NCBI GenBank assembly: GCA_022510615.1
Contig: JAFLTC010000003.1
Coordinates: 1 to 64,000 of the forward strand
Length of the DNA stretch: 64,000 bases
Reading direction: 5' to 3'
Source of the DNA: Lachnospiraceae bacterium
Lineage (GTDB): Bacteria; Bacillota; Clostridia; Lachnospirales; Lachnospiraceae
The position numbers were made by a program, and so were the translations under genes. The notes under the pieces are model-generated. The model saw only the letters and a program-made list of their open reading frames with translations. It ran no database searches and had not been told where the DNA came from. The first letter of the stretch is position 1. Each line of letters opens with the position of its first letter. This document shows, one piece after another, positions 10,082 through 53,175 of this stretch.

Positions 10082-10112
10082 TGAAATGTTGTGTGGACAG
10101 GAGGTAGAGGAT

Positions 10113-11168
10113 ATGACAAATGCTACATATACAAAGAACCGATATATTAAGACAGCATACAAAGGCATCGTCTTTCTCTGTCTGCTGTACCATATTTTAT
10201 TTTCCTGTCTGGTAATAATATTGCACGTTCCCGGACTTTTCATCTACCATCTGTGTGTATGTGCTTTTTACGTTTTTATGCTACGGCTGGTAACCATGGA
10301 CATCTACCGGATTACCACTGTGCTGATACATATAGAAATCATCACCTTTATACTTACCAATACCGTACTACTTGGGTGGAATGCCGGGTTCCACGCCTAT
10401 TTACTGGCGTTGGCTTCTCTGGTCTACTTTAACCCTTTTGACAATAAAAAAGTGATGTATATATTTTCCGGTATGGAGGCGGTTCTTTTCTTCTGCCTGA
10501 AGATATTCACCATATATTACTCACCGATACTCCATATGAGTTCCCAAATGCGGGACATATTTTATCTGATCAATTATGTAGGTTGTTTTATCGTGGTAGT
10601 GAGTGGCGCTGCATTATCGAAAGTTTCCGCGGAAACTACGGAAAAACGGTTGGTAAGAAAGACGCGGTCTCTTCAGAATCAGGCAGACCATGACACCCTT
10701 ACCCATCTGTGGACGCGCTCCTATTTAACGAAACAGTTTCAGAAGATAAGAGAAAAAGGAATGCCATTTTCAGTGACAATGTGCGATATCGATAATTTTA
10801 AGGGAATTAATGATACCTATGGGCATAATTGCGGAGATTATATATTAGAAAGCATCGCCGGTATTTTGAAAAAAAATTCTCCGGAGAATAGCATTGTCAC
10901 CCGCTGGGGTGGTGAGGAATTCATTGTGCTACTGGAGGATTGCGACATCACCAAAGGCAAACCGCTGATAGAAAAAATACGAAAAAAAGTGGCAGAGACG
11001 GAATTTGTATACAAGGAACAAGTCCTTCGTGTGACGATGACCTTTGGCATTAGTACCAGCATGGAACACACGGAATTAAACAACCTGATTGAACTTGCGG
11101 ATGACAGGATGTATGTAGGAAAACAGAATGGGAAGAACCGTGTGGTGGATGACTCCTATGTCATGTAA
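10113..11168 (+). CDS. Membrane diguanylate cyclase (GGDEF)
   Basis: A 351-residue protein with about six membrane helices (residues 15-175), a short linker and a GGDEF domain (about 190-345). The active site reads RWGGEEF, and the nucleotide-binding CDIDNFKGINDTYGH segment is intact, so it should make cyclic di-GMP from two GTP. The inhibitory I-site (RxxD upstream of GGEEF) is absent; the equivalent residues are PENS, so product inhibition through that site is not expected. The start is the ATG at 10113, with AGGAGGT 8 bases upstream; an ATG at 10086 lacks a site. It ends 45 bases before the dispersed palindromic element, copy 1. Confidence 0.9.
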   Translation: MTNATYTKNRYIKTAYKGIVFLCLLYHILFSCLVIILHVPGLFIYHLCVCAFYVFMLRLVTMDIYRITTVLIHIEIITFILTNTVLLGWNAGFHAYLLALASLVYFNPFDNKKVMYIFSGMEAVLFFCLKIFTIYYSPILHMSSQMRDIFYLINYVGCFIVVVSGAALSKVSAETTEKRLVRKTRSLQNQADHDTLTHLWTRSYLTKQFQKIREKGMPFSVTMCDIDNFKGINDTYGHNCGDYILESIAGILKKNSPENSIVTRWGGEEFIVLLEDCDITKGKPLIEKIRKKVAETEFVYKEQVLRVTMTFGISTSMEHTELNNLIELADDRMYVGKQNGKNRVVDDSYVM

Positions 11169-11212
11169 GATACTATTATATCATTGTAAAACATAGCTTG
11201 TAACTCAACAAA

Positions 11213-11324
11213 AAATACCATCCAATCAGCGAGAACCTCAAATGCGAAGCGTTTCCGGTGAGGTAAGCCTCAAAAGTCAGACTTTTGGGCATACCTCACT
11301 TTCGAGTTCGATTGGATGGTATTT
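11213..11324 (+). repeat. Dispersed palindromic element, copy 1
   Basis: Outer stem of 15 perfect pairs (11213-11227 with 11310-11324), an AGCGA bulge (11228-11232), GAAC/GTTC (11233-11236, 11306-11309), a hairpin AAATGC-GAA-GCGTTT (11240-11254), then a long hairpin starting GTGAGGTA (11258) and ending TACCTCAC (11292-11299). U-runs flank both sides, so it can terminate both the cyclase gene and convergent gpmI. It shares its core with 31426-31492 and 52461-52573. Confidence 0.8.
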
Positions 11325-11327
11325 ATT

Positions 11328-12857
11328 TTACTGCTTAATCAATAATGACTTTCCGGTCATTTCCGCCGGCTGCTCCATGTCCATCATCTCAATCAGTGTC
11401 GGGACAATGTCAGCCAGGCAGCCGCCCTCGCGAAGGCCATAGTTCTCATCATAATTTACAATGATAAATGGAACCGGATTGGTTGTATGTGCCGTAAATG
11501 GAGAACCATCCTCATCAATCAGCTTCTCTGCATTGCCATGATCGGCACAGATAAACATCTGTCCGTCCACTTCAAGAAGAGCATCTACTGCTCTGCCTAC
11601 GCACTCGTCAACGGCTTCGATTGCTTTTATGGCAGCCTCCAAGATTCCTGTATGACCAACCATATCCGGATTGGCAAAGTTTATGATAATGACATCGTAT
11701 TTATCGGACTTAATGGCATCAACCAGATTATCGCACACTTCATAGGCACTCATCTCCGGTTTCATATCAAAGGTCGCGATTTTTGGAGAATCAACCAGAA
11801 TACGATCCTCGCCATCAAACTGCTTTTCTTCACCGCCATTAAAGAAGAACGTTACATGAGCATATTTCTGGGTCTCCGCAAGGCGAAGCTGTGTCTTGCC
11901 ATTCTTTGACAGATATTCGCCAAAGGTCATCGTCAGTTCCTCTGGCGGATAGGCAACAAGGACGTTTGGCATCTCTGCGTCATACTGTGCCATACAGACA
12001 AATGTCACCGGAAAATAACCATTTTTTCTCTCAAAGCCTCCAAAATCCGGATCCACAAAAACTCTCGTCAGCTGTCTTGCACGGTCTGGGCGGAAATTAA
12101 AGAAAATGACACTGTCATTTTCCTTAATCATGCCATTTTTATCCACTACTGTCGGCAGCATGAACTCATCGGTTATATCATTGGCATAAGAATTGCGGAT
12201 TGCCTGTACCGGGTCCGTCTCCTCCACTCCTTCTCCGTAAACCAGTGCTGCATATGCTTTTTCCTCACGGTCCCAGGCATTGTCACGGTCCATCGCATAG
12301 AAACGTCCGGAAATGGTGGCAACAGATCCGACACCGATCTCTTTCATTTTGGCAACTGCCTCTTCCATATATTCAGCAGCAGAGGAAGGCGGTACATCAC
12401 GACCATCCAGATAAGCATGTACATATACCTTTTCGATTCCATTTCTCTTTGCCAGTTCTAAAAGACCATATAAATGCTCCATATGGCTGTGGACACCGCC
12501 CGGGGAGAGAAGTCCCATCAGGTGGAGTGCCGAATCATTTTTCTTACAGTTCTCTACCGCTTTTGCCAATGCTTCGTTTTCAAAAAATTTGCCATCCTCT
12601 ATATCCTTTGTAATTTTCACAAGCATCTGGTATACGATGCGTCCGGCACCCATATTGGTATGCCCTACCTCGGAGTTGCCCATCTGTCCGTCCGGCAGTC
12701 CCACTGCCATACCGCTGGCATCCCCTTTTGTATGAGGGTATTTAGCAAGAAGGTTATCCATTACCGGCGTCTTTGCCTGGGCGATGGCATTCCCCTCTGT
12801 CTTGTCGTTTAAGCCATATCCATCTAAAATCATTAAAACAGTTGGTTTCTTACTCAT
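11328..12857 (-). CDS. gpmI: 2,3-bisphosphoglycerate-independent phosphoglycerate mutase
   Basis: A 509-residue, two-domain alkaline-phosphatase-fold enzyme that interconverts 3- and 2-phosphoglycerate in glycolysis, normally with Mn. The nucleophile Ser lies in GNSEVGH (about residue 62), with metal ligands in MILDGYG near the start and CADHGNAEK and HTTNPVPF near the end. Length is normal for the family. The ATG at 12857 is chosen from three in-frame ATGs because GGAGG ends 5 bases before it. It is a single gene with its own promoter and a bidirectional terminator (element copy 1) directly after the stop. Confidence 0.96.
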   Translation of the reverse strand: MSKKPTVLMILDGYGLNDKTEGNAIAQAKTPVMDNLLAKYPHTKGDASGMAVGLPDGQMGNSEVGHTNMGAGRIVYQMLVKITKDIEDGKFFENEALAKAVENCKKNDSALHLMGLLSPGGVHSHMEHLYGLLELAKRNGIEKVYVHAYLDGRDVPPSSAAEYMEEAVAKMKEIGVGSVATISGRFYAMDRDNAWDREEKAYAALVYGEGVEETDPVQAIRNSYANDITDEFMLPTVVDKNGMIKENDSVIFFNFRPDRARQLTRVFVDPDFGGFERKNGYFPVTFVCMAQYDAEMPNVLVAYPPEELTMTFGEYLSKNGKTQLRLAETQKYAHVTFFFNGGEEKQFDGEDRILVDSPKIATFDMKPEMSAYEVCDNLVDAIKSDKYDVIIINFANPDMVGHTGILEAAIKAIEAVDECVGRAVDALLEVDGQMFICADHGNAEKLIDEDGSPFTAHTTNPVPFIIVNYDENYGLREGGCLADIVPTLIEMMDMEQPAEMTGKSLLIKQ

Positions 12858-12897
12858 CATTTCCTCCATTCCGGAGCATTGCTCCTTGCTTTATGAC

Positions 12898-30515: not shown

Positions 30516-30580
30516 TCCCATAGCTGTTTTGTCTGGCGGCGCAGATACGGATGGCAAAAGAAAGAATGGAGGCAGACACT

Positions 30581-31345
30581 ATGGAATACGGACTAATCGG
30601 GGAGAAACTGGGACATAGCTATTCGAAACAGATCCATGAGCTTTTGACGGACTATACCTATGAGCCCCATCCTTTGACAAGAGAAGAATTTAAAGATTTT
30701 ATGGAAAAAAGAGAGTTTCGCGCCATCAATGTTACCATTCCCTATAAATGTGATGTAATTCCCTACCTGGAATCCATGGATGAGGGAGCGAAAGCCATTG
30801 GTGCTGTCAATACCATTGTGAACCGGAACGGGAAACTGTATGGCTACAACACCGATATGCCTGGATTTATTTACATGGTAAAAAATAATGGTATTGATTT
30901 ATCCGGTAAAAAGGTCGTAGTACTTGGCAACGGGGGAGCTTCCCAGGCAGTTCAGGCTGCCGTCCGCAAACTAGACGCTGCTAACCTTATTGTCGTGGGA
31001 CACCGTGTTATGAAGGAAGGTGTGATTACCTATGAGGAATGTTTTGAAAAACATAGCGATGCAGACATCGTTATTAATACCAGCCCGGTGGGTATGTACC
31101 CAAAGGTAGACGCCTCTCCGGTGGATTTAAGACACTTTCCGAAATGTCAGGCGGTATTTGATATTATTGCCAATCCTTTAGTCACGAAACTGACTGCCCA
31201 GGCAAAGGAACTTGGCATGCTCGGAGTGACCGGACTGGAAATGTTAGTGGCACAGGCAAAATATGCCGTTGAAATTTTTCTGGATACGAAAATCCCGGAA
31301 GAAAAAATTGCTGAGATCTGCAGCATACTGAGGCAGTCACTTTAG
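30581..31345 (+). CDS. aroE: Shikimate dehydrogenase
   Basis: A 254-residue AroE reducing 3-dehydroshikimate with NADPH. The substrate-binding domain has GHSYSKQIH, NVTIPYK (catalytic Lys about 59) and NTDMPGF (Asp about 95); the Rossmann domain has VVVLGNGGASQAVQAA. At 254 residues it is a little short. The start is the ATG at 30581 with GGAGG 8 bases upstream. It stands alone, while aroD-aroK (53236) and aroA (61434) lie elsewhere in the window. Confidence 0.93.
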   Translation: MEYGLIGEKLGHSYSKQIHELLTDYTYEPHPLTREEFKDFMEKREFRAINVTIPYKCDVIPYLESMDEGAKAIGAVNTIVNRNGKLYGYNTDMPGFIYMVKNNGIDLSGKKVVVLGNGGASQAVQAAVRKLDAANLIVVGHRVMKEGVITYEECFEKHSDADIVINTSPVGMYPKVDASPVDLRHFPKCQAVFDIIANPLVTKLTAQAKELGMLGVTGLEMLVAQAKYAVEIFLDTKIPEEKIAEICSILRQSL

Positions 31346-31425
31346 ATAGCACTACCAAAGTGCCCCTCCACCGATATATGTTGCAAAACATTTCATCGTG
31401 TTGCAGGAAACAGTAGAAACTAAAA

Positions 31426-31492
31426 GATGGCACCCCATCAGCGAAAACCTTTAACGCGTAGCGTTACCGGTTTGAGTCGATTGGGTGCCATC
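31426..31492 (+). repeat. Dispersed palindromic element, copy 2 (short form)
   Basis: Outer stem GATGGCACCC/GGGTGCCATC (31426-31435 with 31483-31492), then ATC-AGCGA (bulge at 31440-31444), AAACC/GGTTT (31445-31449, 31469-31473) and the hairpin TAACGC-GTA-GCGTTA (31452-31466). The long second hairpin of copies 1 and 3 is missing. It sits between convergent aroE and the gene ending at 31507. Confidence 0.75.
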
Positions 31493-31506
31493 GTTTAATT
31501 TTAAGC

Positions 31507-32286
31507 TTACATAAAAAATCCTCCGCTGCCCATCATTAATAAATCCAGCAGCAGTCCCGTCTCATAGGACATGGATAGAGATTCCATGTGACGGCCCGGA
31601 TTCCACATGTCTACTCCACGAATCCTCGCTCTTTCTGCTAAGCTCCGGTTGTATAATTCCGTTTCAAACATCCGGTTTTCCATTTCACTGAGCTGCCGCT
31701 TTCTGGCATCACTTTTTTCCTGTAACGCCTTCAGCAATTTTTTCCGTCTCGCCCGTCTCTCCCAAAAACTGTCTTCGGCCTTTTTATCAAAAAGACTCTC
31801 TCCTTTTCCATTTTGATATCCCTTATACCAGCCGTGTCCGTGATATTCCTCCTTGGTCGCACCAAAATAATGAATGCTGTAGGAACCACCACACATATTT
31901 GCCCATGGGTCATGAAAAGAAAAATTTGCCTTTAGCGTATCCAGTACCCATTTTTCATATTCGGGATCATTTTTCATCGCCTCAAAGCCCTCGTCGGAAA
32001 TATGAATGGATATGGAATTCTGCATCTGAGAGGGATGCAGTGGTATCTGGGAAATCTTATCATGGATATACTGTTTGTATTGTTCTAACGTCATATCCTT
32101 AGGAGAAATCACCACGGGAAAGGCCACAGTAGATACTCCATTCGTTCTTGCATTCCGACTCTCCAACTGTCTGTTTACCGCTCCGACAAAACTATTATCC
32201 TCGTCCACCTCTGTCCTTGCCTCATAGCTCTTGAGAAAATTCTGATATGTTCTTGTCATATAATCTACATAAATTGCATTATTCAT
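31507..32286 (-). CDS. Uncharacterised protein, paralogue of its upstream neighbour
   Basis: A 259-residue soluble protein I cannot name. Visible: an SISIHISDEGFEAMKNDPEY segment (in two motifs, SIHISDEG and MKNDPEY, about 96-113), a GATKEEYHGHGW patch (about 142-153), a basic coiled-coil stretch (about 175-205) and a hydrophobic Gly/Met-rich tail (GLLLDLLMMGSGGFFM). The first motif and the EEY..H patch recur in the neighbour at 32279. The start overlaps that gene by 8 bases, with GGAGG upstream. The pair follows a two-component system. Confidence 0.65.
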   Translation of the reverse strand: MNNAIYVDYMTRTYQNFLKSYEARTEVDEDNSFVGAVNRQLESRNARTNGVSTVAFPVVISPKDMTLEQYKQYIHDKISQIPLHPSQMQNSISIHISDEGFEAMKNDPEYEKWVLDTLKANFSFHDPWANMCGGSYSIHYFGATKEEYHGHGWYKGYQNGKGESLFDKKAEDSFWERRARRKKLLKALQEKSDARKRQLSEMENRMFETELYNRSLAERARIRGVDMWNPGRHMESLSMSYETGLLLDLLMMGSGGFFM

Positions 32287-35119: not shown

Positions 35120-35165
35120 CCAAGTGTCGTTTTACGACTTAAAAAAGTCGCAAAACGACACTTGG
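35120..35165. repeat. Long near-perfect palindrome
   Basis: CCAAGTGTCGTTTT (35120-35133), A, CGACTT, an AAAA loop, AAGTCG, C, and the complementary arm (35152-35165): 20 base pairs with a single A/C mismatch in a 46-base span. Each half also contains its own small palindrome. It lies 15 bases after the mnmM stop and has no clean U-run, so it may be a terminator, an operator or a repeat element. Confidence 0.75.
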
Positions 35166-52427: not shown

Positions 52428-52460
52428 CAATAAAGCTCCTTTTTCGCAGTGCGAAACAAA

Positions 52461-52573
52461 GAAAAATCCACAAATCAGCGAGAGCATTTAATGCGAAGCA
52501 TTACCTGTGAGGTGCCCCAAAAAGTTTGTCTTTTGGAGTGCCTCACATCTCGAGCTCGATTTGTGGATTTTTC
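52461..52573 (+). repeat. Dispersed palindromic element, copy 3
   Basis: Outer stem of 16 perfect pairs (52461-52476 with 52558-52573), AGCGA bulge (52477-52481), GAGC/GCTC (52482-52485, 52554-52557), the hairpin TAATGC-GAA-GCATTA (52489-52503) and a long hairpin from GTGAGG (about 52507) to CCTCAC (52541-52546). It is downstream of efp and upstream of the metallophosphoesterase; U-runs occur on both strands. Confidence 0.8.
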
Positions 52574-52617
52574 TATCATTTAATACTACCGAAAACGATA
52601 GCTTTCTACTATTCTTT

Positions 52618-53175
52618 TTACAGTCGCTTAAGATACTCCCCGGTTCGGGTGTCAATCTGAATTTTATCCCCCTGATTTACAAAAATCGGAACACTGACCT
52701 GTGCGCCTGTCTCAACGATAGCCGGTTTCGTTACATTCGTAGCGGTATCGCCTTTCACACCAGGCTCTGTCTCCGTAACTTCCAGTTCCGCAAACATGGG
52801 AGGCTCAATGGCAAAGATATTTCCCTTATAGGAAACCATCTTTACATTATCATTTTCTTTTACAAATTTCATGGTGTCACCTACTGCATCCTGAGTCAGG
52901 GCAATCTGCTCATAGGTTTCATTGTCCATAAAGTTATACATCTCGCCGTCATTATATAAGTACTGCATCTCTTTTTTATCAATATGTGCCTGAGGATATT
53001 TCTCTGTCGGGCGGAATGTTTTTTCTACTACACCGCCATCTACTACATTTCTTAATTTCGTACGCACAAAAGCCGCTCCCTTACCTGGCTTTACATGCTG
53101 AAACTCTACAATCTGATAAACGATTCCGTCAATTTCCACTGTTAAACCGTTTCTGAAATCTCCTGCTGATACCAT
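52618..53175 (-). CDS. efp: Elongation factor P
   Basis: A 185-residue EF-P with its three OB-like domains. The conserved lysine loop is [15 protein letters not shown] (about 27-41), and the C-terminal GEYLKRL ends the protein as in most EF-P. It rescues ribosomes stalled at polyproline. No EpmAB-type modification genes are nearby. ATG follows AGGAGG. Single gene with a terminator-like element downstream. Confidence 0.96.

Follow-up and report, generated by a model that had tools for sequence, protein, structure and literature searches.

The stretch of DNA analysed, called the window here, comprises 64,000 nucleotides (positions 1 to 64,000 of contig JAFLTC010000003.1, assembly GCA_022510615.1) from a Lachnospiraceae bacterium, and a folded repeat element lies at three places in it. 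The limits of the whole elements given below are those of a covariance model, R1, which was built from an alignment (A1) of 25 copies of the 45-50-nt form from the genome that holds the window (the own genome). A window search with R1 at E up to 1 matched just these three places. The copies and their neighbours, the latter named from Pfam matches, are as follows.

11207..11330, plus strand: copy 1, whole hairpin element of form 2 with an extra internal hairpin (R1, 47.7 bits), between a GGDEF gene (10086-11168, plus strand) and gpmI (11328-12869, minus strand)
11228..11232, plus strand: AGCGA, the 5' strand of the conserved internal loop of copy 1, read from the sequence; its C covaries with a partner G
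11240..11254, plus strand: small hairpin AAATGC-GAA-GCGTTT of copy 1 (sequence and folding)
11258..11299, plus strand: extra hairpin GTGAGGT...ACCTCAC of form 2 in copy 1 (sequence)
11310..11322, plus strand: 3' outer arm of copy 1, GATTGGATGGTAT (sequence and folding)
31419..31499, plus strand: copy 2, whole element of form 1 (R1, 88.7 bits), between a shikimate-dehydrogenase-like gene (30551-31345, plus strand) and an ORF without a Pfam match (31507-32286, minus strand)
31440..31444, plus strand: AGCGA loop strand of copy 2
31452..31466, plus strand: small hairpin TAACGC-GTA-GCGTTA of copy 2 (sequence and folding)
52456..52578, plus strand: copy 3, whole element of form 2 (R1, 50.4 bits), 40 bp downstream of the stop codon of efp (52618-53175, minus strand) and antisense to efp
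52477..52481, plus strand: AGCGA loop strand of copy 3

The element is about 62-135 bp long and consists, from the outside inwards, of A/T-rich imperfect arms, an outer stem, an internal loop, a short stem and a small hairpin. The outer stem has 14-17 pairs and occurs in two main sequence subtypes, A (..ACCATCCAATC) and B (..ATCCACAAATC). It encloses the internal loop AGYGA/GARTC, followed by a stem of 4-5 pairs and then by the small hairpin, whose loop is mostly of 3-4 nt. Three forms were distinguished by the number of nucleotides between the outer arms: form 3 with 26, which is without the small hairpin, form 1 with 45-50, and form 2 with 87-88, to which copies 1 and 3 belong and which adds the longer internal hairpin that copy 2 does not have.

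A reading of the window made from the sequence alone had described a dispersed, co-varying structured element occurring three times. The three copies are indeed present and the arms it quoted are right (AAATGC/GCGTTT, TAACGC/GCGTTA and TAATGC/GCATTA for the small hairpin, GAAC/GTTC and GAGC/GCTC for the stem beside the loop), although its limits were somewhat narrow and the window holds a small part of the family. The genome search for further copies, set beforehand as the refuting test, returned many: using R1 at E up to 0.001, 48 places were found in the 2.1-Mb draft genome (78 rows, which merged into these places and 30 opposite-strand shadows), including two on contig C73. The flanks of the C73 copies (L065, L068) are 95-99.7% identical to contig C81 of a relative, G011, far above the other orthologous flanks at about 69-80%, and this short contig therefore probably contaminates the draft. 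The own set analysed consisted of 47 of the 48 places, the two C73 copies included, and the relatives' set of 73 elements fetched from many more matches. BLAST of copy 1 against the own genome gave 32 matches, and the pattern ATCAGCGA...TCGAT gave 17, of which two look chance-like by sequence, against 0 with the reversed control. All three window copies fold far more stably than shuffled sequences (forward-strand z of -8.04, -8.11 and -9.18 for copies 1 to 3; 0 of 200 shuffles as stable), and in each of them the forward strand is slightly more stable than its complement. Comparison with Rfam yielded no family, with 0 window matches at the gathering score; the best sub-threshold match near the copies was mir-454, at 25.9 bits against 60.

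Within the genus, 11 of 39 genomes were positive, the own genome included, with row counts from 2 to 97 (shadows counted), so that the distribution is patchy. In a sample of the family, 2 of 397 genomes were positive at E up to 1e-5, both of the same genus; the other 395 gave no match in this less sensitive search, which scored 11 candidates per genome. An exact-pattern search found carriers in the MAGs Lachnospiraceae bacterium HAN042 (G011) and Eubacterium sp. SUG160 (G012). Of the 22 pattern matches in HAN042, 12 are no more than 60 bases away from a contig end (L220, L224-L226, L228-L233, L235, L236). This crowding suggests that the elements break the assembly and that true copy numbers are probably higher. 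Phage and plasmid collections searched by blastn, and viral contigs searched with one exact pattern, gave no match. A literature search by titles and the beginnings of abstracts returned no description of this repeat family.

The setting of the copies was analysed in 821 kb of own contigs, which were chosen because they hold elements and in which genes were called by longest-ORF heuristics. Convergent intergenic regions hold 19 of the 28 elements there, such regions being 62 of 442 intergenic regions in all. Seven of the remaining elements are at tandem sites and two at divergent ones (none was divergent in an earlier count on 453 kb). The gene nearer to the element is the one to which it is antisense in 16 of the 19 convergent cases, and 5 of the 7 tandem elements lie behind a gene in whose transcript they would appear as the reverse complement of the forward strand. 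Forty own copies have flanks long enough to be judged; in 36 of them the neighbour to the right is encoded on the opposite strand (by heuristic gene calls), and 32 of these neighbours end within 55 bp of the element. A replication-strand bias was rejected, orientation being unrelated to the direction of replication as judged by GC skew (15/28).

The elements occupy positions at which intrinsic terminators are expected, mostly no more than about 50 bp from a stop codon. A stable hairpin soon after the stop codon is present, the 5' ends of the elements are A-rich and the 3' ends T-rich, and the flanks are rich in T without a pure T tract. In a simple terminator scan the three outer stems of the window went unflagged, their loops exceeding its 8-nt limit; its one flag within the copies was a 5-pair hairpin inside an arm of copy 2. 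The outer stem is a putative transcription terminator, frequently a bidirectional one.

At the loci of gpmI and efp in other genomes, R1 finds no element at 24 of 24 gpmI loci and 28 of 29 efp loci read. These element-free loci include those of G011, whose proteins are 96% and 95% identical, and by eye many of them show ordinary, unrelated terminators. The exception, in the 3' flank of efp in G034 (L207, 628-675), is a hairpin without the core, with the tip AATC-AGCAGG-GATT, which scores 33.5 bits with R1 and 32.8 bits on the other strand. It may be a bare terminator or bare form of the element, or else its remnant. Since R1 scores it weakly, there is no sharp boundary between the element and an ordinary terminator.

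The covariation of the stems is strong and not due to chance. In A1, 24 of 30 pairs have changed on both sides and 0 of 500 shuffles attain the covariation score, so the arms of the further copies co-vary as those in the window do. When the partner was slid by 1-3 columns, the paired fraction dropped from 95.9% to 30-41%. For a wider view we used 105 distinct copies, left from 134 matches at 89 chosen loci once duplicates and exact opposite-strand copies had been dropped. Among these aligned copies the third base of AGCGA and its partner on the GAGTC strand form C-G in 68 copies and T-A in 20; the preceding G faces U in 96 of 105, a conserved G.U. Tandem G.A pairs could in addition form from GA/GA beside the stem. 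The AGCGA, which had been described as unpaired, is therefore not plainly so. The remark that the core is conserved beyond what a simple terminator needs is borne out both by its conservation and by the spread of the family.

The two parts of the hairpin differ in their mismatches. Over the 17 pairs of the outer stem in the 105 copies we counted 22 G-U and 33 A-C mismatches (p 0.18), which gives no clear strand preference and agrees with what a palindrome in DNA, or a terminator working in both directions, should show. The inner pairs show 41 G-U against 12 A-C when the conserved G.U and one often-unpaired helix-end pair are left out, and 41 against 22 when that poorly paired helix-end position is counted. 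The contrast between inner and outer pairs, in the 41:12 version, has a Fisher p of 0.0001; these p-values treat related copies and species as independent. The preference of the inner pairs for G-U and the symmetric mismatches of the outer stem suggest that the core is kept as a folded forward strand and the outer stem as a symmetric palindrome. The hint of strandedness taken earlier from a single U-G pair thus holds for the inner pairs but not for the outer stem. It fits folding of the forward strand, either as RNA or as single-stranded DNA. The further step, from covariation and one U-G pair to a functional plus-strand RNA, is unsupported, the forward strand being mostly antisense to the nearer gene.

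The outer stem also changes faster than the core. In the 7 closest pairs of own 45-50-nt cores, the cores differ on average at 1.6 positions and the stems at 5.0 of 13, of which 4.3 are two-sided; core pairs 12.9 positions apart differ at merely 6.8 stem positions. In orthologous copies of the own genome and G011, with flanks about 70-79% identical, 6, 7 and 3 of 16 stem pairs differ. In 14 of the 16 cases both arms differ and the bases form Watson-Crick pairs in either species; this comparison rests on three cleanly anchored pairs, two further pairs with mis-anchored arms (2 of 12 and 3 of 14 as counted there) having been excluded.

Several footprints at the DNA level accompany these stem changes. 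Inverted repeats specific to the locus extend past the hairpin in 13 of 47 own copies, 13 of 29 in G011 and 0 of 20 in G038, counting those above the 99th percentile of mismatched pairings; in G038 shared arms raise the threshold at skip 0, and the count is 0/20 at each setting. The repeats reach beyond 28 bp in 5/47, 0/29 and 0/20 copies respectively. In each of these five own copies (L039, L047, L056, L061, L002) one of the arms runs about 18-33 bp into the end of the called ORF next to it. The idea that gene ends are generally copied in inverted form was rejected on the same counts. In L103, one of 18 recent copies of G038, the inner part is inverted between CCAACC and GGTTGG, and its stem mismatch and outer arm are on the opposite side compared with the other 17 recent G038 copies fetched. 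In L056 of the own genome the loop reads TTC where the nearest own cores have GAA (5 of 45 positions differ, three of them being this loop), which we read as a loop inversion.

Multiple two-sided changes, stem extension and loop inversion are described as marks of template switching in PMC8794818, where its part in keeping short stems paired is treated as less clear, and arm homogenisation and spacer inversion are described for yeast in PMC8604942. Two-sided stem changes, stem extension and loop inversion are all found here, the inversions as single cases (one of 18 recent G038 copies and one own loop). The recent G038 copies retain an uncorrected stem mismatch, so correction is not fast there. 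The outer stem is nearly all Watson-Crick, is symmetric between strands, outpaces the core, and is accompanied by continuing inverted repeats and two inversion footprints; its covariation is therefore better fitted by DNA template switching, by selection for a bidirectional terminator, or by both, than by a functional RNA. Watson-Crick, strand-symmetric stems are no proof of template switching, because bidirectional-terminator selection alone predicts the same pattern. The template-switch mutation of quasipalindromes predicts what is seen here (PMC8794818, PMC8604942), but it is a mutation mechanism and not an element, and these papers describe it in yeast genes and in hairpins of microRNA and rRNA, the latter also from bacteria.

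The unit of spread can be seen in G038, where 18 of the 20 fetched copies are near-identical and lie at different genes. Seventeen of these 18 agree in the order of the outer arms and in a stem whose uncorrected mismatch is the same or similar, which indicates that the whole hairpin with its arms is what spreads. Insertion of a core into pre-existing local terminators is rejected at least for G038, as recent copies there share stem and arms. The G038 outer arm GGGCTGTCGCACTAAGAC, with up to 3 mismatches, has 51 matches in that genome, and those inspected are elements, terminator-like hairpins and repeat arrays, without a transposon. Intergenic arrays of several other hairpin repeats also occur in G038 (L138-L144), among them terminator-like GGGGCTGTCGCACTAACAATT hairpins in bare form and AATTGTCTTACGACCG... 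and GGGGCATGCC... units in tandem. Inspection by eye of the flanks of the 20 G038 copies, whose ends vary, showed no target-site duplication, and no mobilising enzyme was found near copies. A reverse transcriptase was considered as mobiliser and rejected: RVT_1 occurs in 4 of 11 element-bearing and 13 of 28 other genomes of the genus, and not in the own genome.

We consider it probable that these copies are a family of palindromic repeats which has spread as whole hairpins in some species of one Lachnospiraceae genus and persists where an intrinsic terminator is needed. The label that fits best is a mobile palindromic terminator repeat, REP/MITE-like. Whole hairpins would have spread to sites within about 50 bp of stop codons, mostly between convergent genes, where the outer stem would terminate transcription, frequently from both sides. 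The near-perfect, fast-changing palindrome may be maintained by template switches in replication that copy one arm onto its partner, by selection for a hairpin in each of the two transcripts, or by the two together. The slow-changing core, that is the AGYGA/GARTC loop and the small hairpin, might be recognised as a folded forward strand by a protein that spreads the element.

A bolder form of this interpretation, which we put forward tentatively and think fairly unlikely, is that of a self-spreading terminator hairpin whose covariation, a pattern usually accepted as proving an RNA functional, is mainly written by DNA template switching. Such an element would settle after stop codons, its orientation set by transcription, and take over termination; its flank, sometimes with the last codons, would be copied into the inverted repeat, and it would be moved by an agent recognising the folded core. 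If this is true, many genes of a bacterium receive their end signals from a dispersed repeat, which displaces native terminators within a genus. It would also mean that covariation in dozens of copies can stem from the copying of DNA palindromes, a point that concerns any search for structured RNAs based on covariation. The family is a natural data set in which to part the two causes, by comparing outer stem with core, convergent with tandem sites, and orthologues with recent bursts.

Among the other explanations, movement by a Y1 (HUH) transposase acting on a folded single strand, as for a REP-like or IS200/IS605-derived non-autonomous element, would account for the palindrome, the high copy number, the position at gene ends and the strand-specific fold of the core. 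Y1_Tnp is found in 6 of 11 element-bearing and 4 of 28 element-free genomes of the genus (Fisher p 0.017), where the species are not independent and some of the matches are contig-end fragments. We nevertheless regard this origin as unlikely. The own genome, which is 88% complete, has no Y1_Tnp, and no R1 match was found in 6 Y1 loci or in 8 further stretches of G038, G011 and G017, most of them around Y1 matches (the loci searched cover part of the 18 Y1 matches in 10 of 39 genomes). Orientation is not tied to replication direction, as given above. The tag of REP elements is an unpaired GTAG or CGTC at one end of the palindrome (PMC3733652). No such tag is conserved at the ends here: GTAG occurs in 8/47 own and 5/73 relatives' elements and CGTC in 1/47 and 32/73, and the occurrences seen lie inside paired arms or the core.

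The comparison with REP, REPIN and BIME repeats and their RAYT transposases is still a close one, these being short, high-copy intergenic palindromes that are often placed directly behind genes and arranged as inverted pairs (PMC3733652). The main text of that paper contains neither the word Firmicutes nor Clostridi. Unlike those repeats, the element here is longer, occurs in three modular forms with a conserved internal loop and apical hairpin, has no conserved terminal GTAG/CGTC tag, and has no Y1 transposase in its own genome or beside its copies.

A functional structured RNA family, either a 3'-UTR regulator or a trans-acting small RNA under selection for folding of the forward-strand RNA, was the reading closest to the original one. 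It would explain the strong covariation, the conserved loop and G.U (96/105), the preference of the inner pairs for G-U over A-C (41:12 or 41:22) and the slightly more stable forward strand of the three window copies. It is at odds with a forward strand that is mostly antisense to the nearer gene, with an outer stem showing no G-U preference, and with a patchy, high-copy, lineage-specific spread at unrelated genes, which is unlike a usual cis-regulator, and we hold it to be improbable.

Equally doubtful is a composite mobile unit bounded by a subtype A hairpin on one side and a subtype B hairpin on the other, of which single copies would be remnants. Among the own (G000) and G011 elements examined, 15 pairs lie within 400 bp of each other; 14 of these have -/+ order and 14 combine an A stem with a B stem, the A/B labels of C13:7832 and G011 C118:3067 being our own reading, against or beyond the script's rule. 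At most 14 of the pairs are independent, as the C73 pair is probably the C81 pair of G011. The ends of 13 A-to-B spacers are similar, with 9 of 78 comparisons above the 99th percentile of shuffles against 0 of 78 in the opposite orientation, and one pair is common to both species at one locus. The spacer interiors, however, are not evidently conserved, most copies are single, and in G038 it is single hairpins that multiply. Identical inverted neighbours are unstable, and their loss alone could leave only A+B pairs.

That these are ordinary intrinsic terminators, alike through gene conversion or selection and without mobility, is very improbable: position after stop codons in convergent regions, the A-rich 5' and T-rich 3' ends and the core-less G034 efp hairpin speak for it, but a 45-nt core with a specific loop is common to dozens of loci and was not found in 28 of 39 genomes of the genus, and near-identical G038 copies lie at different genes.

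The mobile terminator repeat that we favour also resembles several other known systems. Bacterial MITEs and stem-loop families (BOX/RUP, Correia, bcr) are likewise non-coding, folded, dispersed and lineage-specific. The stems here, by contrast, co-vary from copy to copy instead of forming one fixed terminal repeat, and neither an insertion sequence sharing their ends nor, by eye, a duplicated target site was found. A systematic set of such families is given in PMC2267715. The terminators formed by DNA uptake signals (PMC1852404) are likewise a dispersed repeat co-opted as a gene-end hairpin, but they are made of two closely spaced inverted signals of about 9-11 nt, whereas here one long hairpin with a conserved core spreads. 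Selfish palindromes of organelles, in Volvox (PMC2670323) and in sponges (RHE, PMC2800124), are intergenic hairpins that multiply without a known mobiliser. They differ in that the element here is in a bacterial chromosome and has strong two-sided stem changes, whereas the sponge stems are conserved and their loops variable (PMC2800124).

Two further hairpins were noted. On the minus strand of the window at 35120-35165 lies a 20-pair hairpin (G-T allowed), consisting of the terminator-like GTCGTTTTGCGAC and TTTTTT followed by a near-exact inverted copy; it is another mirrored terminator, without the core of the element. In the 3' flank of efp in G012 (L206), where the element is absent, an ordinary terminator-like hairpin is followed, by eye, by an inverted copy of the last efp codons.
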